Shown here: piece after piece, positions 41,906-49,942 of the stretch
Layout of the letters: the number at the start of each line of letters is the position of its first letter
Numbering within the stretch: the first letter of the stretch is position 1
Assembly: GCF_004118375.1 (NCBI RefSeq)
Contig: NZ_SDHX01000001.1
Location: 3,227,693 to 3,291,692, forward strand
DNA length: 64,000 nucleotides
DNA from: Oleiharenicola lentus
GTDB lineage: Bacteria; Verrucomicrobiota; Verrucomicrobiia; Opitutales; Opitutaceae
Direction of reading: 5' to 3'
Translations under genes and position numbers: made by a program
Notes under the pieces: model-generated
Database searches by the model: none
What the model was told of the DNA's origin: nothing
The model's input: only the letters and a program-made list of their open reading frames with translations

Positions 41906-42574
41906 TCACCACGGCACCGACGTGCTGCCGTGTTGCGCGGCCTCGACGGCGTGCTCGTAGGCCAGCGCCGCCTCCTCGCTCGTGCTCGCCGAGGTCTTCA
42001 GGTCGCGCAGCAGGCCATCGCGCAGGCCGTAGATCCAGCCGTGAACCGAAAGCGACTGCCCGCGGGTCCACGCATCCTGCACGATCGTGGTCGAGCAGAC
42101 GTTGGCCACCTGCTCGATGACGTTCAGTTCGCAAAGCTTGGCGCTGCGCGCCGTGTCGTCGCCCAGCATCGAGAGGCAGTCATCGTGCTTGGCGCGCACA
42201 TCCTGCACGTGGCGCAGCCAGTTGTCGGCGAGACCGACGCGCGTGCAGCGATAGGCGGCCTGCACGCCGCCGCAGCCGTAGTGGCCGACAACCATGACGT
42301 GTTTTACCTTGAGCACGTCCACGGCGTATTGGAGCACGGAGAGGCAGTTGAGGTCGGTGTGCACGACCACGTTGGCGATGTTGCGGTGCACGAAGACCTC
42401 GCCGGGGAGCAGGCCGATGATCTCGTTGGCCGGCACGCGCGAGTCGGAGCAGCCGATCCACAGGTATTCGGGGTTCTGCTGGCGCGACAGCTTTTGGAAA
42501 AACTCCGGATCACGCCGCTTGATGGCTTCGGCCCAGGCCTGGTTCTGTTCAAAGAGGTGCTTCAGGCTTTGCAT
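41906..42574 (-). CDS. beta-class carbonic anhydrase
   Basis: 222 residues, converting CO2 to bicarbonate. Zinc ligands and dyad: Cys42, Asp44 and Arg46 in WIGCSDSRVPANEI, His98 and Cys101 in VVGHYGCGGVQAA. All are intact. The length fits the Can/CynT-like bacterial group. I start at the ATG at 42574 (MQSLKHLFEQNQAW), since the upstream in-frame extension is arginine-rich and unlike the family. Divergent from the alpha-2-macroglobulin gene, 194 bases apart. Confidence 0.93.
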   Translation of the reverse strand: MQSLKHLFEQNQAWAEAIKRRDPEFFQKLSRQQNPEYLWIGCSDSRVPANEIIGLLPGEVFVHRNIANVVVHTDLNCLSVLQYAVDVLKVKHVMVVGHYGCGGVQAAYRCTRVGLADNWLRHVQDVRAKHDDCLSMLGDDTARSAKLCELNVIEQVANVCSTTIVQDAWTRGQSLSVHGWIYGLRDGLLRDLKTSASTSEEAALAYEHAVEAAQHGSTSVPW

Positions 42575-42768
42575 CGTGCCCAAATGCTTGGCGGTGACCC
42601 GCGCTTGTCCATCCCGGAGTTTGCGTCGCGGTTCACGGCTTGCCCCGTTTGGAACCGCGACAAAGATGGAGGCCCATGGCACCTGAGGCCGGGTGTCCTG
42701 TTCTAAGAACCGATCGTCCGCCGCGTTTAATCCCCGGCGACACCCCACCGCCCCCGTTTCCCGTGCCC

Positions 42769-45700
42769 ATGAAAACCCGTTTCTCCCTCGGCCTTGCCCT
42801 GCTCCTCGCCTGCGTCACCGCCCTGTCCGCCGCCTCGCGCAAAGCCCAATGGGAAAAGGTCGAGCAGGCCCGCGACCAAAAGCTCCCCCAGTCCGCCATC
42901 GCCGCGCTCGAGCCCATCATCGCCGGCGCCATCGCCGACAAGAAATACGCCGAAGCCCTCAAGGCCATCGGTCAGAAGAACTCCTTCGAACGCCAGATTC
43001 AGGGCAACAAGCCCGAGGAACAGATCGCAGGCCTCCTCGCCGAGCTGACCCGGACGCCGCCCGAGATGAAACCCGCCGTCGAGGCCCTCGTGGCGCGCTG
43101 GTATTGGATTTATTTCCAGCGCAACCGCGGCCGCTTCCTGCAGCGCACGCAGACCGCCGCGCCGCCCGGCGCGGATTTCCAGACTTGGGACCTCGCGCGC
43201 ATCCTGACTGAGATCGACCGGCACTACTCCGCCGCCCTCGCCGACGAGAAGATCCTCAAAGCCACCCCGATCAGTGCCTACGACGATCTGCTCGAACGCG
43301 GCAACGTGCCCGATGCCTACCGCCCCACCCTGTTTGATTTCTTCGCGCACGAGGCACTCGAGTTTTACCGCACAGGGGAACAGGGAGCGATCCGCGCGGA
43401 AGACCGCTTTGTGATCGACGCCGACAACCCGATCTTCGCCGACACCGACGCCTTCATCCGCTGGCAACCGACCACCACAGATACTGAATCCCCCGCCCTG
43501 AAGTCGGTGCGACTCTACCAGAAGCTCCTCGAGTTTCACCGCAACGATCGCGACAAGTCCGCCTTCTACGACGCTGACTTCGCCCGCCTGACCTTTGGTC
43601 GCAACCTCGCCGTCGGCAGCACCAAGGAAGAGCGCTACCAAGCCGCACTCGAGCGCTTCATCCAGACCACCTCGAAGCACGAAATTTCCGCCCGCGCCCT
43701 GAACGAGTTCGCCACCCGTCTGAACGCAGCCGGTGACCCCACCAAGGGCCATGAATTGGCCCGCCGCGCGATCGAGGCCTTTCCGAAAAGTGCCGGCGCC
43801 ATCGGCTGCTCCAATCTCATCCAGCAAATCGAGGCGAAACAAGCCTGGCTGAACACCGAGTCCGTCTGGAGCGCACCATGGCCGACGCTCAACGTGAACT
43901 ACCGCAACGTCACCCGGGTCTATTTCCGGGCCGTGCCGGTCAGCTTCGCGGACCACCTCTCCCGGTCGCATTGGGGCGAGACGCCGAACTTCATCCAGGA
44001 AAACCTCGCGCGCACCCCGGCGCTGGAGTGGTCGGCCGAGTTGCCGCCGACCAAGGATTTTCGACTGCGCACGGAGAGCCTGCCGGCACCGACGACGCTG
44101 AAGCCGGGCTATTACGTGATCTTCGCCAGTCACGACCCGTCCTTCGGCTTCGAGGAGAATCAAGTCAGCATGGCCCGGGTCTGGGTCAGCAATCTCGCCC
44201 TGGTCACGCTGCCCGACCGCGACGACGGTTATCTGAGCGGTTTTGTGCTCAAAGGCGAAAGTGGCGAACCGGTCGCCGGGGCGCTCGTGCAGGCGTGGGA
44301 ACGCAACCGGGAGGGCTGGTTCAAATCGGCGGAGCGCATCCTCACCAATGCCGACGGCCGCTTTCGTTTCAAGGCCCCGAGAAACAACCCCCGCAACCTG
44401 ATCCTGGTGGCCGAACACGAAGGCCACACTCTGGCCAACTCCGAGCCCGTCAGCGTCTCCCCCGAGGACACCACCCCGAACCGACCCGAGCCTGAAACCG
44501 TTTTCTTCACCGACCGCGCCCTCTACCGCCCGGGACAAACCATCCAGTTCAAGGGCATCTGCATCCGCAGCGACCCGGACAAAGCGAACTACTCCGCCCT
44601 CGCCGGCCGGTCGGTGACGGTCGCGCTCTTCGACAGCAATGACAAGGAAGTCGCCCGCAGCAACCATGTCGCCAACGATTACGGCTCCTTCAGCGGCAGC
44701 TTCACCGCCCCGCGCGACCGCGTGACCGGCGGCATGACGCTGCGCGTGCTCGAAGGGCCGGTCGGCCATTCCTGGTTCCGCGTCGAAGAATACAAACGCC
44801 CGAAATTCCAGGTCGAGATCGCGGCCCCGACCGAGGCGCCCAAACTCGGCGCCCCCACGCGCGTGACTGTCAAGGCGGCCGCCTACACCGGCGCCGCCCT
44901 CGGCGGGGCCAAGGTCAAATGGAACGTCATGCGCACGACCCAGCTGCCGCCGTGGTGCTGGTGGTGGTCAGGCCATTCCATCCAAGCCATCGCCCATGGC
45001 ACCGCGGTGACCGAGGCGGACGGTACCTTCACGGTCGAATTCACCGCCGCGCCGGATCGCGCAGTGCCCGAAAAGAACGAACCGGTCTTCATCTTCACCA
45101 TTCACGCCAGCGTGACCGACAGCACCGGTGAGACGCGCTTCGCCAACCGCAACATCAGCGTCGCCTACACCGCCTTGCAAGCCACCCTCCTTGCCGACGA
45201 ATGGCAGACTCCGGACAAGCCCGTGACCTTCGTCATCGGCACGCGCTCGCTCGACGATGTCCCGCAGGCGGCCGAAGGGAAGATCACCATCCACTCGCTC
45301 AAACAGCCCGCGCAGGTGGTCCGGGCTAATCCGGGAATGGAGGGATTTTCGTATCACCCCAACATGGTGATCATCCGCCCGAAACCTCCCGGAGAACCCA
45401 AGGTCGATCCCACTAAACCCGAAAGTTGGGAAACCGACCGCAAGGTGTCCGAACTCGCCTTCAAGACTGGCAGCAACGGACTCACAGAACTCAAGGCAAC
45501 CCTGCCCGCCGGCATCTACCGTGCCGAGCTCACGACCAATGACCGCTTCGGCAAGACTGTCACCGCCCGTCACATCCTGCAGGTCCTCGACCCGGCGGCT
45601 CCGCGCTACGGCGTGAAGATTCCCAATCACCTCGCCGCGCCGAAGTGGAGGGTCGAGCCCGGCGAGGAATTCACGGCGCTCTGGGGCACGGGTTATCCCA

Positions 45701-48700
45701 CGGGCCGGGCTTTCGTCGAGCTGGAGAGCGCGGGCAAACTGCTCAAGAGCTACTGGACCGACGCAACGCGCACCCAGGAGTTAATCACCCTCCCCATCAC
45801 GGAAAAACTTCGCGGCGGCCTGACCCTGCGCGTTACCTATGTGCGGGAAAACCGGGTCTATCCCAATGAGCAGATCGTGGACGTGCCGTGGAGCAACAAG
45901 GAGCTGAGCCTCAAATGGGAAAGTTTCCGTTCGAAACTCCTGCCCGGTCAGCCGGAGACGTGGACCGCCGTCATCACCGGCCCCGAAGCAGAGCGCGCCA
46001 CCGCGGAGATGGTGGCCTCTCTCTACGATGCCTCGCTCGACCAGTTCTCGTCCCACGGTTGGCGGGACGGATTTGGCGTGTTTCGCCGGGAGGAGGCGTT
46101 CGGCACCGCCTTTCTGCACAATTCCTTGATCGGCTTCAATCCGGTGGGAGGCCATTGGAGGCTGGCGATGCGTCCCGTGGAGTGGCGCTATCGCTCGTTC
46201 AGCGATGATCTGCGCGGCTGGAATTACTACAGCGACGACGATGTGATTGTTTTGTCGCCGTTTGCGGTTTCCGCCGAATACGACGGCGTTGGCTATGCCT
46301 CGGCCAGCACCCTGGCCGGCAGCCGCGTGCGCACCGAACTGCGGGATGTCGGGAATGCCGTCACGGTCGTGAACAGCCAGTTCATGATGGACGTGTCGGC
46401 AAACGACATCGCTACGCCGGCCGAAGCCCCGGCACTAGCCGAAACCGCCGATAGCGCACTGCCACCGCCCGACCTCTCTCAAGTCACCGCCCGCAAGAAT
46501 CTCAACGAGACCGCTTTCTTCTTCCCGCACCTGCTGACCGACGAAAACGGCGTCGTGAAGATGCAGTTCACGATGCCCGAGGCGCTGACGGAGTGGAAAT
46601 TTCTCGGGTTCGCACACGATTCCAAGATGCGCTCCGGTTTCCTCACTGCCAAGGCCGTCACGGCCAAGGACCTCATGGTCGAGCCCAACCCGCCACGATT
46701 CGTGCGCGAGGGCGACGTCATCGAGTTCACCGTCAAGGTCAGCAACCAGTCCGAGAAACCGCAGGCCGGCCGCGTGCGCCTCACCTTTGCCGACGCCGCC
46801 ACGCTCGCATCCGCCGACGCCGCGTTGGGCAACGCCTCGCCCGAGCAGGCCTTCGACGTGCCGGCGAAACAATCGCGCAGCTACTCGTGGCGCATCGCCG
46901 TGCCCGACGGCGCGGGCTTCCTCACCTACAAGGCCGTCGGCGCCACCGCCGCCGGGAGCGACGGAGAGGAGGGCTTCCTCCCCGTGCTGAGCCGCCGCAT
47001 CCTTGTCACCGAGTCGCTCCCGCTCCCGATCCGCGGCCCGGCGACCAAGGAGTTCGACTTCAAGAAAATGATCGAGTCCGGGCAGTCCGACACGTTGCGC
47101 CACCAGTCGCTCACCGTGCAGATGGTGTCGCAGCCCGCGTGGTATGCCGTGATGGCCCTGCCCTACCTAATGGAGTTCCCGCACGAATGCAGCGAGCAGC
47201 TCTTCAACCGGCTCTACGCCAACTCCCTCGCCCGCCACATCGCTGGCTCCGACCCGAAGATCCGCCGCATCTTCGACCAGTGGCGCAACACGCCCGCCCT
47301 CGACAGTCCGTTGCTCAAGAACCAGGACCTGAAATCGGTGATGATCGAGGAGACGCCTTGGCTGCGCCAGGCCACGGCCGAGAGCGAGGCCCGCCGCAAC
47401 GTCGGCGTGCTCTTCGATGCCAACCGCCTCGATTCGGAATCGGAACGCATTTTGAGCCAGCTCGCCGAGCGTCAGCTCAGCGACGGCCTCTGGCCGTGGT
47501 TCCCCGGCGGTCGCCCCAGCGAATACATCAGCCTTTATATCGTCACCGGCTTCGCGCGCCTGCGCCACCTCGGGGCCGAGGTGGACGTCGCGCCGGCTAT
47601 CCGCGCCCTCACCGCGCTCGACGCGTGGATGACGAAGCGCCACGCGGAAATCCTGAAATGGGACCACCCCGAGCTCTACGTGCCCGGTTCGCTCGAAGCG
47701 CTCTACCTCTACAGCCGCAGCTTCTACCTCAAAGACCAGCCCGTCGCCCCCGCGCACCGCGCTGCCGTGGACTTTTTCCTCGGCCAGTCGCGCAAGTTCT
47801 GGACCAAGGTCGGCAGCCGGCAGAGCGAGGCGCATCTCGCCCTCGCCCTGCAGCGCTTCGGCGACCGCGAGACTCCGCCGGCGATCATAAAGTCGCTCAA
47901 GGAACGCAGCGTGAACCACGAGGAGATGGGCATGTTCTGGCGCGACACCGAGCTGAGCTGGTGGTGGTATCACGCACCGATCGAAACGCAGGCGCTCATG
48001 ATCGAGGCCTTCGACGAGATCGCCCGCGACACCCAGGCCGTCGAAGACTGCAAGGTCTGGCTGTTGAAACAAAAGCAGACCCAAAACTGGAAAACGACCA
48101 AAGCCACCGCCGACGCCGTCTATGGCCTGCTGTTGCGCGGCACCAACCTGCTCGCGAGTGACGCCCTCGTGGAAGTCGCCCTCGGCGGCGAGACAATCAA
48201 GCCCGAGAAAGTCGAGGCCGGCACCGGCTTCTACGAGCAGAAGTTCGTGCGCGGGGAGATCAAACCGGAGATGGGCCGCGTCACGGTGAAAAAGACCGAC
48301 GAGGGCGTCAGCTGGGGCAGCGTCCACTGGCAATACCTTGAGGACATGCGCAAGATCACGCCCCACGAGGGCACGCCGCTGAAGTTGAAGAAGGCGCTAT
48401 TCATCAAGGAAAACACCAAGCGCGGCCCGGTGCTGACGCCCGTGACCGGCCCGGTTGCCGTCGGCGACGAGCTTGTCGTGCGCCTCGAGCTGCGCACCGA
48501 TCGCGACATGGAATACGTCCACCTTAAGGACCAACGCGGCAGCGGCACCGAACCCGTCAACGTGCTCAGCGGCTACCGTTACCAGGACGGACTCGGCTAC
48601 TACGAGAGCACGCGCGACACCGCCTCGCACTTCTTCATCGAATACCTCCCGAAAGGCACCTACGTCTTCGAATACTCGACGCGCATCCAGCTCCGCGGCA

Positions 48701-48789
48701 GCTACCAGACCGGCATCGCCGAGATCCAGTGCATGTATGCCCCCGAGTTCAACAGCCACTCCGAGAGCCTGCCGCTTGAGGTGAAGTAG
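42769..48789 (+). CDS. alpha-2-macroglobulin family protein with TonB-plug-like segment
   Basis: 2006 residues, signal peptide (LGLALLLACVTALSAAS). An N-terminal helical/TPR-like part is followed by a carboxypeptidase-regulatory-like domain near 485-540 (SGFVLKGESGEPVAGALVQA), the MG2 domain near 579 (FFTDRALYRPGQTIQFKG) and the A2M core near 1245 (NETAFFFPHLLTDENGVVKM). The thioester motif is intact (PHECSEQLF, Cys1474-Gln1477), as in protease-trapping members. Between them, residues about 1156-1209 read like the N-terminal plug of Opitutaceae TonB receptors (VIVLSPFAVSAEYDGVGYAS, STLAGSRVRTELRDVGNAVT). Bacterial A2Ms usually pair with PBP1C; none is here. Cytochrome c gene follows. Confidence 0.92.
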   Translation: MKTRFSLGLALLLACVTALSAASRKAQWEKVEQARDQKLPQSAIAALEPIIAGAIADKKYAEALKAIGQKNSFERQIQGNKPEEQIAGLLAELTRTPPEMKPAVEALVARWYWIYFQRNRGRFLQRTQTAAPPGADFQTWDLARILTEIDRHYSAALADEKILKATPISAYDDLLERGNVPDAYRPTLFDFFAHEALEFYRTGEQGAIRAEDRFVIDADNPIFADTDAFIRWQPTTTDTESPALKSVRLYQKLLEFHRNDRDKSAFYDADFARLTFGRNLAVGSTKEERYQAALERFIQTTSKHEISARALNEFATRLNAAGDPTKGHELARRAIEAFPKSAGAIGCSNLIQQIEAKQAWLNTESVWSAPWPTLNVNYRNVTRVYFRAVPVSFADHLSRSHWGETPNFIQENLARTPALEWSAELPPTKDFRLRTESLPAPTTLKPGYYVIFASHDPSFGFEENQVSMARVWVSNLALVTLPDRDDGYLSGFVLKGESGEPVAGALVQAWERNREGWFKSAERILTNADGRFRFKAPRNNPRNLILVAEHEGHTLANSEPVSVSPEDTTPNRPEPETVFFTDRALYRPGQTIQFKGICIRSDPDKANYSALAGRSVTVALFDSNDKEVARSNHVANDYGSFSGSFTAPRDRVTGGMTLRVLEGPVGHSWFRVEEYKRPKFQVEIAAPTEAPKLGAPTRVTVKAAAYTGAALGGAKVKWNVMRTTQLPPWCWWWSGHSIQAIAHGTAVTEADGTFTVEFTAAPDRAVPEKNEPVFIFTIHASVTDSTGETRFANRNISVAYTALQATLLADEWQTPDKPVTFVIGTRSLDDVPQAAEGKITIHSLKQPAQVVRANPGMEGFSYHPNMVIIRPKPPGEPKVDPTKPESWETDRKVSELAFKTGSNGLTELKATLPAGIYRAELTTNDRFGKTVTARHILQVLDPAAPRYGVKIPNHLAAPKWRVEPGEEFTALWGTGYPTGRAFVELESAGKLLKSYWTDATRTQELITLPITEKLRGGLTLRVTYVRENRVYPNEQIVDVPWSNKELSLKWESFRSKLLPGQPETWTAVITGPEAERATAEMVASLYDASLDQFSSHGWRDGFGVFRREEAFGTAFLHNSLIGFNPVGGHWRLAMRPVEWRYRSFSDDLRGWNYYSDDDVIVLSPFAVSAEYDGVGYASASTLAGSRVRTELRDVGNAVTVVNSQFMMDVSANDIATPAEAPALAETADSALPPPDLSQVTARKNLNETAFFFPHLLTDENGVVKMQFTMPEALTEWKFLGFAHDSKMRSGFLTAKAVTAKDLMVEPNPPRFVREGDVIEFTVKVSNQSEKPQAGRVRLTFADAATLASADAALGNASPEQAFDVPAKQSRSYSWRIAVPDGAGFLTYKAVGATAAGSDGEEGFLPVLSRRILVTESLPLPIRGPATKEFDFKKMIESGQSDTLRHQSLTVQMVSQPAWYAVMALPYLMEFPHECSEQLFNRLYANSLARHIAGSDPKIRRIFDQWRNTPALDSPLLKNQDLKSVMIEETPWLRQATAESEARRNVGVLFDANRLDSESERILSQLAERQLSDGLWPWFPGGRPSEYISLYIVTGFARLRHLGAEVDVAPAIRALTALDAWMTKRHAEILKWDHPELYVPGSLEALYLYSRSFYLKDQPVAPAHRAAVDFFLGQSRKFWTKVGSRQSEAHLALALQRFGDRETPPAIIKSLKERSVNHEEMGMFWRDTELSWWWYHAPIETQALMIEAFDEIARDTQAVEDCKVWLLKQKQTQNWKTTKATADAVYGLLLRGTNLLASDALVEVALGGETIKPEKVEAGTGFYEQKFVRGEIKPEMGRVTVKKTDEGVSWGSVHWQYLEDMRKITPHEGTPLKLKKALFIKENTKRGPVLTPVTGPVAVGDELVVRLELRTDRDMEYVHLKDQRGSGTEPVNVLSGYRYQDGLGYYESTRDTASHFFIEYLPKGTYVFEYSTRIQLRGSYQTGIAEIQCMYAPEFNSHSESLPLEVK

Positions 48790-48931: not shown

Positions 48932-49942
48932 GTGCGTTCTCCCCTCCACCGCGCCACTGCCGCGGCCTGTTTGCTCGCTGCCTCCACCTTCTTTGCCGCC
49001 GAGCCGCCCCCGCCCTGGGCCTACGGATTCAAGGAACCGCCTCCGCCCGGCACCGCTCAAGTTCCGCCCGGCAAGGCCGGCCCACCGCCGACCGACCCGG
49101 TGAAGCACGGCCTCCCCGGCACCGACCGCGCCTTCACGCGCGCCGAGATCACGGACATCTTCGCTCCGGCCGACTACTTCCCCGGCGAGCACCCCGCTCC
49201 GCCGGAAATCGTTTCGCACGGCAAGCCGCCCGTCGTGTGGTCCTGCGCCCGCTGCCATTATTACAACGGCCAGGGCCGCCCGGAAAACGCCGGCCTCGCC
49301 GGCCTGCCCGTGGATTACTTCATCGCGCAGATGCAGGCGTTCCGCAACGGCGACCGCCACAGCGCCGACCCGCGCAAACCGAACACGCCGATGATGATCG
49401 AATTCGCCCGGGGCATGACCGACGCGGAAATCCGTGCCGCCGCCGAATACTACGCCGCCCAACCATGGCGGCCGTGGATCCGCGTCGTCGAGACCGAGCG
49501 TGTGCCGCAGACCACGATCTCCGCCGGCATGTATCTGCAGGTGCCCGGCGGTAGCGACGAACTGCTCGGCCACCGCATCATCGAGGTCCCCGTGGACCCG
49601 GAGTCCGTTGAAATCCAGCGCAGCCCGCAGGTCGGGTTCATCGCCTACGCGCCGGTCGGCAGCATCAAGCGCGGCGAGGCACTCGTCACCACTGGCGCCG
49701 GCAAGACCGTCGCCTGCGCCGCCTGCCACGGCCCGGAACTGAAAGGCATGCCCCTGCCCAACGTCGGCACAATGCCCGGACTCGCGGGCCGCTCGCCCAG
49801 TTACGTGGTCCGTCAGCTGTTCGACATCCAGCACGGCCACCGCCGCGGTCTGCACGTCGAGCTGATGAAGCCCGTTGTGGCCAATCTCACCACCGATGAC
49901 ATGCTGGCTATCGCCGCCTACCTCGCCTCGCTGAGGCCGTAA
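48932..49942 (+). CDS. diheme cytochrome c
   Basis: 336 residues, GTG start, signal peptide (RATAAACLLAASTFFAA). Two c-type heme sites: CARCH at 105-109 and CAACH at 262-266. A proline-rich segment (about 24-60) precedes the first domain. The two halves resemble class I c4-like domains, with GMTDAEIRAAAEYYAAQ and TTDDMLAIAAYLASLRP as the C-terminal helices of each. It is a periplasmic electron carrier or part of an oxidoreductase; the partner is not evident. It follows the macroglobulin gene by 142 bases. Confidence 0.9.
   Translation: MRSPLHRATAAACLLAASTFFAAEPPPPWAYGFKEPPPPGTAQVPPGKAGPPPTDPVKHGLPGTDRAFTRAEITDIFAPADYFPGEHPAPPEIVSHGKPPVVWSCARCHYYNGQGRPENAGLAGLPVDYFIAQMQAFRNGDRHSADPRKPNTPMMIEFARGMTDAEIRAAAEYYAAQPWRPWIRVVETERVPQTTISAGMYLQVPGGSDELLGHRIIEVPVDPESVEIQRSPQVGFIAYAPVGSIKRGEALVTTGAGKTVACAACHGPELKGMPLPNVGTMPGLAGRSPSYVVRQLFDIQHGHRRGLHVELMKPVVANLTTDDMLAIAAYLASLRP

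Follow-up and report, generated by a model that had tools for sequence, protein, structure and literature searches.

The closest described relatives of the protein studied here are the bacterial alpha-2-macroglobulins (A2Ms) ECAM (YfhM) of Escherichia coli and SaA2M of Salmonella, with which it shares the family domains, the thioester motif and a disordered bait before the A2M domain. To our knowledge, the ECAM bait has no receptor sequence in it. Human A2M and A2ML1 are extracellular, and their baits are not known to be related to receptors. In the excerpted text of PMC4498604, the bait of the A2M protein family is described as largely disordered, CXEQ is given as the thioester motif, and ECAM-type proteins are described as anchored in the inner membrane, whereas the relatives of the protein studied here have no conserved lipobox. 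Excerpts of two further papers report that part of the E. coli A2M bait can be swapped for a chosen protease site, the matching protease then being captured (PMC9918453), and that a TEV site replacing bait residues 700-706 of A2ML1 was cut and covalent complexes formed (PMC9156758).

A second comparison concerns the TonB system. The TonB-dependent receptors (TBDRs) of Opitutaceae, of the LSPFxV ... TLAGTR ... type, are the source of a stretch in the present A2M that comprises the TonB box and the plug start; unlike these receptors, the A2M has neither a barrel nor a complete plug. In the literature searched, by a search part of which could miss hyphenated forms, A2Ms bearing a TonB box or plug were not described in any paper. 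Individual database annotations of Bacteroidota cases may exist, and an A2M with a receptor-derived bait is a variant on a known theme. TonB-dependent bacteriocins (colicins, pyocins) are similar in that a non-receptor carries a TonB-binding motif in a disordered part, as excerpted from PMC7593965, but they are imported toxins, whereas the A2M would be a resident trap.

The macroglobulin of the window and its bait region

The window is the whole 64,000-nucleotide stretch of Oleiharenicola lentus DNA that was analysed. Its A2M gene and the main landmarks of the encoded protein are as follows.

42769..48789 (+): A2M gene, 2006 aa, with signal peptide (Pfam domains, Foldseek, N-termini by eye)
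46132..46497 (+): disordered linker, residues 1122-1243, bait region by position (pLDDT <50; directly before R1242)
46489..46521 (+): ARKNLNETAFF with R1242, start of the A2M core (HMMER alignment, translation)
46510..46782 (+): Pfam A2M domain (PF00207), E=2.9e-21
47188..47199 (+): CSEQ thioester motif (CxEQ), residues 1474-1477 (read in translation)

Four Pfam families were found over their cut-offs in the window A2M, namely MG2 (residues 578-672), A2M_BRD (955-1065), A2M (1248-1338) and bMG10 (1872-1993). The protein has the domains expected of a bacterial A2M and, by its CSEQ motif, is a candidate thioester former; both this motif and the core motif are present as the initial annotation of the window had stated. 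An AlphaFold2 model of residues 560-1345, made from an alignment of 41 sequences, had a mean pLDDT of 78.6 and a pTM of 0.71, and the MG arms beside the linker were mostly near or above 90. When the model was compared with solved structures by Foldseek, the E. coli A2M entry 5a42 (E=1.8e-26) and the entry 4u48 (E=1.7e-24) were matched, and the best 50 solved matches (E<=2.5e-20) were all A2M, TEP, CD109, complement, or complexes containing them. The MG arms of the model have the macroglobulin fold, but TM-scores by query length were low, 0.30-0.45 (0.38-0.40 for 5a42 and 4u48 over the whole model), so that the relative placement of the arms is not confirmed.

Residues 1122-1243 had pLDDT values below 50 throughout, with at most two short helix turns. 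This predicted disorder ends at R1242 of ARKNLNETAFFFPHL, which HMMER pairs with TVRKYFPETWIWDL of human A2M at 7.1 bits, a score that is alone not significant; the human counterpart in that weak alignment is TVRKYFPETW. According to the excerpted text of PMC9156758, the unmodelled bait of A2ML1, His696-Asp726, lies just before Arg730-Pro734, and retraction of the latter from the channel is proposed to begin the conformational change. We infer that Arg730 is the Arg of the RK..ET motif; the human proteins and the window A2M would then share, as far as the weak alignment goes, both the position of the bait and the motif after it. Because the disordered linker ends at R1242, which is weakly aligned with this human A2M/A2ML1 motif, the receptor-derived stretch is placed by position and predicted disorder within the bait region, cleavage itself being putative. 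The initial annotation had offered a tether to outer-membrane transport, binding to TonB-system components, or bait-like filler as possible roles of the stretch, and the last of these came closest, given that the position is that of the bait region.

By eye, no conserved lipobox was found among the N-termini of 27 loci including that of the window, and one of them (L173) lacked any lipobox candidate. A lipoprotein anchor was rejected on this ground, the LLAC of the window protein itself being ambiguous. The N-termini suggest instead that the window A2M and its relatives are soluble exported proteins. Soluble export would place the bait beside receptor N-termini and TonB, if the protein remains periplasmic. 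The gene is flanked by a beta-carbonic-anhydrase-like gene (41906-42748, - strand) and a c-type cytochrome gene (48932-49942, + strand), both assigned by eye. Inspection by eye revealed neither a protease gene nor one for a penicillin-binding protein next to the A2M gene, and the neighbours were discarded as a functional clue, nothing related being seen among them. A phage origin was also rejected, as PHROGs gave no match at E<=0.1.

Receptor homology of the stretch

The stretch and its two motifs, all within the linker, are located as follows.

46234..46410 (+): receptor-derived stretch, residues 1156-1214 (28/28 other own-genome matches overlap a Plug domain)
46234..46275 (+): TonB-box-like motif DDDVIVLSPFAVSA, residues 1156-1169 (34.2 bits, profile of 27 own-genome receptor boxes, p=0.0005)
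46309..46386 (+): plug-start motif TLAGSRVRTELRDVGNAVTVVNSQFM, residues 1181-1206 (54.4 bits, profile of 28 own-genome receptors, p=0.0005)

When the 59 residues 1156-1214 were used as a query against the window genome at E<=10, 29 places were obtained, the A2M itself and 28 others, of which 23 were at E<=0.001. All 28 overlap a Plug (PF07715) match, and no non-receptor protein of this genome besides the A2M was found to carry the stretch. By sequence, residues 1156-1214 are thus homologous to the N-terminus of TBDRs, and the initial annotation, which had recognised here the opening of Opitutaceae TBDRs, was borne out by these matches and by the box profile, its coordinates also being correct. 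The best match, a 1325-aa frame (E=2.4e-20), is identical at 38/55 residues. Its DNA is only 71% identical to that of the A2M stretch, with the same codon at only 19/38 identical residues; the stretch was therefore not recently copied, and recent gene conversion within the window genome was rejected. The genome has 48 Plug matches, 0 of them inside the A2M, and 34 TonB_C matches. Nine of the TonB_C matches are clustered at C1:155876-C1:159107, in open frames of 817, 388 and 485 aa.

The profile of 27 receptor boxes scored 34.2 bits at the stretch vs 0.8 at the next best place in the protein, and 0/2000 linker shuffles reached the box score. DDDVIVLSPFAVSA lies upstream of the plug, and the stretch continues into the first plug strands. 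From its position before the plug and its acidic-then-hydrophobic pattern, DDDVIVLSPFAVSA is probably the TonB box of this receptor type; papers on TonB boxes of Opitutaceae or Verrucomicrobia were not found in the literature searched.

The stretch comprises the TonB-box region and the opening strands of the plug, and is not a plug domain. Pfam gave no Plug match in either the whole window A2M or a cut-out of 100 residues, and no beta-barrel family, the C-terminus being bMG10. NCBIfam gave no receptor match for the whole protein; for the cut-out only, FhuE appeared far below threshold (E=0.011, 14.1 bits vs a cut-off of 666). A plug domain in the window protein was rejected on the missing Pfam match, the sub-threshold NCBIfam score and the disordered model. 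The initial annotation had called the segment plug-like and had suggested a profile search and a structure prediction. The former found no plug-family match in the window protein, and the latter, with residues 1122-1243 below pLDDT 50, gave no plug fold; what stands of the claim is a receptor N-terminus with a TonB box, and what falls is the plug domain. Two grounds for abandoning it had also been named, namely a missing plug match, or disorder together with poor conservation in close relatives: the match is missing and the segment is disordered, but relatives conserve it as a TonB box.

Recurrence, composition and tempo of the baits

We searched 252 Opitutaceae genomes for the A2M domain and found it in 37 of them, at 49 places, 48 of which have upstream sequence (G077:C60, which has none, was left out of the linker counts). 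The box was scored with a 14-column profile from the 27 receptor boxes of the window genome, with p taken against shuffles of each linker itself. At p<0.01 the box was present in 33/48 linkers, 32 of the 33 lying at the floor of 0.0005; since the family linkers are related to one another, 33/48 is a count and not a number of independent events. The search for the same chimera that the initial annotation had proposed therefore gave a positive answer in other Opitutaceae. In the control, A2M linkers of other Verrucomicrobiota, the box was found in 0/26. A wider set consisted of the best 80 of 436 relatives (Verrucomicrobiota, Planctomycetota, others) minus L214 and L217, and overlaps partly with the 48 family linkers; it had the box in 8/78, all 8 from Opitutaceae and including two Ereboglobus. 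Two more of the eight, L154 and L186, are assigned to the family by linkers identical to those of the Opitutaceae genomes G084 and G105. Most of the other Verrucomicrobiota and Planctomycetota linkers that were read are Met/Ala/Gly-rich by eye.

The A2M cores were grouped by eye into class I, with R.NL.ETAFF or a near variant of it, class II, with RRHFSSTAFW or a similar motif, and a third type. The box at p<0.01 was present in 26/33 class I and 7/15 class II linkers, and in 21/24 class I loci scanned over the full frame the linker box was the best place in the whole protein. Visible but weak boxes, not among the 33, were seen in class I for G029 (p=0.0105), G003 (0.013), G046 (0.028) and G598a (0.09), and in class II for G004b (p=0.10) and G064 (0.0115; the match is not at the visible motif). 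No box was visible in 3/33 class I and 6/15 class II linkers. Note that the box-less group in the tree comprises three members, G510 carrying the box. The genome G083 has three A2M places, one of class I with the box, one of class I without it and one of class II without it.

The sample was extended to the order with 177 genomes (Opitutaceae included), which have 45 non-family A2M places, two places outside the order being left out. The box at p<0.01 was found in 4/45, all in one second family (4/12), whose A2Ms have a core motif that differs again from classes I and II. In addition, L284 has by eye a box and TLAGSRLQT (p=0.10), and L261 has no box (p=0.78). The A2Ms that carry the box thus fall, when grouped by eye, into three core types or more. 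The plug-start profile reached p<0.01 in only 13/48 family linkers vs 33/48 for the box, and one of the 13 (G083c), located in an MG domain, is probably a chance match.

Some class II baits carry long runs of receptor sequence. That of G555 contains 81 receptor residues, 72% identical over 79 to an own-genome 1284-aa frame, and its Plug match is 22.5 bits vs a cut-off of 23.9 (the same score is listed for L237). Baits of Ereboglobus and relatives carry pieces of a second receptor type. Specifically, the L198 bait exceeds the Plug cut-off (25.6 vs 23.9 bits), with a match that spans profile positions 3-69 of 107. Over 89 residues it shares 54% identity with L252, a receptor-like frame of 1123 aa in its own genome; note that the 1284-aa frame and L252 are called receptors on length and reading by eye. 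In the second A2M copy of L198's genome, the box is kept and the middle is gone, followed by VRVGGLDPKYAGFSMDGITLAS, where L252 has VRVGGLDPKYAGFSMDGISLAS. In the G051a bait, RIGGLD precedes EFMKSMPGVSLE, the reverse of the order in L252. Because of the predicted disorder and these permuted pieces in G051a, we read the second-receptor baits as probable collages made up of linear peptides rather than domains. Pattern matching places the box ahead of the recognisable plug pieces in 17 baits, and reading by eye does so for G087; a possible exception is G103a, where the candidate piece RMGGLD stands ahead of the box. Receptor-like sequence was also seen on the C-terminal side of two very long open frames, L249 and L250 (G002, Ereboglobus; 3423 and 3127 aa), whose long N-terminal part is repeat-like or Ig-like by eye.

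Pairs of A2Ms were compared over 450 residues upstream, the bait and 300 residues downstream, and the bait was less alike than either flank in 13/13 pairs computed. Identities upstream, in the bait and downstream were 95/54/84% for G105-G082 and 91/60/95% for G056-G010, each pair having one member with the box and one without, and 68/38/97% for G002a-G051a. The baits are hypervariable. Codon and identity figures cover the g20 and g1 sets, the g3/g46 set being left out for a misplaced box in its G002a row. In genus g20, residue pairs in an 11-residue box were identical in 69/110 (63%) vs 470/1211 (39%) in the remaining bait, and the same codon was used at 25/69 identical box residues vs 954/1887 in the neighbouring domain. 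On these alignments, g20 box residues are kept despite codon divergence. In g1 and near, the box excess was slight (74/165 vs 676/1753 in the rest; same codon 20/74).

These data bear on a neutral explanation, in which the bait accepts any sequence, abundant receptor DNA sometimes recombines into it and the box is functionless. Hypervariable baits, boxes that can be lost and the richness of the window genome in TBDRs (48 Plug matches, counted in this genome only) would all fit such filler. It explains less well that 28/28 other own-genome matches lie at a Plug domain, that the box is far commoner than the plug part and stands ahead of plug pieces (17 baits and G087, with G103a possibly excepted), that g20 residues are retained at diverged codons, and that the box recurs in at least three core types (by eye) and receptor-like baits in two phyla. 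We regard neutral filler as possible, though doubtful.

Possible roles of a receptor-derived bait

Building on homology, position, predicted disorder, recurrence and preferential box retention, all seen in sequences and a model, we tentatively propose, at somewhat short of an even chance, that the bait acts as a decoy. In this reading, the window protein is an A2M that is exported and traps proteases, and its bait has been assembled from the N-terminal part (TonB box and plug start) of TBDRs of the kind that the cell itself has. Once in the periplasm, the bait would present in flexible form that portion of a TBDR which is naturally exposed in this compartment. Cleavage by a protease that attacks these receptors would free the C-terminal arm of the bait and expose the thioester, and the exposed thioester would catch the protease. 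The bait would thereby be a decoy of the asset that the trap protects, occasionally renewed from receptor genes and then diverging fast, as expected for a protease-facing sequence. Plant immune receptors with integrated decoys, defence proteins that bear a copy of the attacker's target, offer an analogy only. If baits are indeed modelled on the receptors of the cell itself, they tell which asset is under attack and give a sequence handle on the attacking proteases. Against the decoy, we are not aware of any protease in these bacteria that cleaves the N-termini of TBDRs.

Three points favour the decoy: the slot coincides with the trigger loop; baits also retain plug pieces (in one case permuted) that are not known to us to take part in TonB binding; and the TonB-box region of receptors is flexible and exposed in the periplasm. 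For example, residues 1-18 of FhuA are disordered in the periplasm, according to an excerpt of PMC11658791. The preference over the other readings is weak. Any disordered cleavable sequence can act as bait, and other linkers are mostly Met/Ala/Gly-rich; the box has been lost in 3/33 class I linkers and is absent from 6/15 class II linkers, G083 having class I copies both with and without it; and the more frequent retention of the box than of the plug part (33 vs 13 of 48) is also predicted if the box serves to dock the trap to TonB.

For such docking, the box in the bait would bind the TonB C-terminal domain and hold the soluble trap at energised TonB complexes, or trigger it there, so that the trap would sit beside the receptor gates where proteases and bacteriocins may enter. 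The box is the best-kept part (33/48 vs 13/48 for the plug start), its residues in g20 are conserved at differing codons (69/110; same codon 25/69 vs 954/1887), the window genome has its 34 TonB_C matches, and with no lipobox conserved in the 27 N-termini an alternative anchor would be useful. Excerpts of PMC7593965 supply a point on each side: colicins and pyocins are non-receptors with TonB-binding motifs in disordered parts, but TonB-box peptides bind weakly, at 9.4-57 uM. A tether would moreover be expected at a protein end and not in the loop that triggers the trap. Some baits retain plug pieces beyond the box, in one of them permuted, and in the g1 set the box is barely better kept than the rest (74/165 vs 676/1753). 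We consider docking unlikely; if TonB does bind the baits, the trap is wired to the energy system of the envelope. A further variant, which we judge very improbable, is that TonB grips the box and, powered by the proton-motive force, draws the bait arm from its channel much as it acts on the plug of a receptor; the thioester trap would then fire with no cleavage by a protease. Such a protein, if real, would be a covalent weapon set off by force at the TonB machinery; we know of force-triggered activation from no macroglobulin.

Receptor-like baits were also seen in Bacteroidota, in a sample of seven A2Ms (six from plasmid records, and L236) that comprises three from Cytophagales and four from Bacteroidales. 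In Aureibacter L235, a Plug match (E=3.6e-11, 43.9 bits) covers residues 1216-1298 and profile positions 21-107 of 107, and the A2M domain begins after it, at 1344. L234, from the same strain, has CarbopepD_reg_2 (E=5.3e-16) followed by SusC-like LNGVVVTALGVSR...AGKVAGVQII, and the order is the same in Hymenobacter L236, there with LSEVVVTGFG; SusC-type receptors presumably begin with sequence of this kind. Pfam gave no Plug match in L234, L231, L232 or the scanned piece of L236. By eye, L231 and L232 (Bacteroidales) have possible receptor remnants, and nothing clear was seen in L230 and L233. The initial annotation had mentioned Bacteroidota A2Ms with plug domains, which is supported by one Plug match over the cut-off (L235) and two SusC-like cases by eye.

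The L235 match, which reaches the end of the model, is the one point in favour of a folded plug domain that tethers the trap to an outer-membrane barrel, as the initial annotation had also envisaged. The window protein itself has no Plug match, only the first plug strands and a disordered model, and, of two Opitutaceae A2M baits that were scanned, the better one spans profile positions 3-69 of 107, which makes such a tether extremely improbable. For the decoy that we prefer, the three Cytophagales A2Ms are relevant in that their bait slot appears, by sequence, to be occupied by a stretch resembling the receptor type of the lineage to which they belong. Since the pattern is seen in two phyla and several A2M types, in each case with sequence like the receptors of the lineage concerned, the origin of these baits is a general question and not a matter of one odd gene. 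In the record of L236 (a plasmid of Hymenobacter sp. DG25B), the A2M appears as two annotated genes, its reading frame being broken within the carboxypeptidase-regulatory domain, and ~900 bases downstream, on the opposite strand, lies a gene labelled 'energy transducer TonB'.
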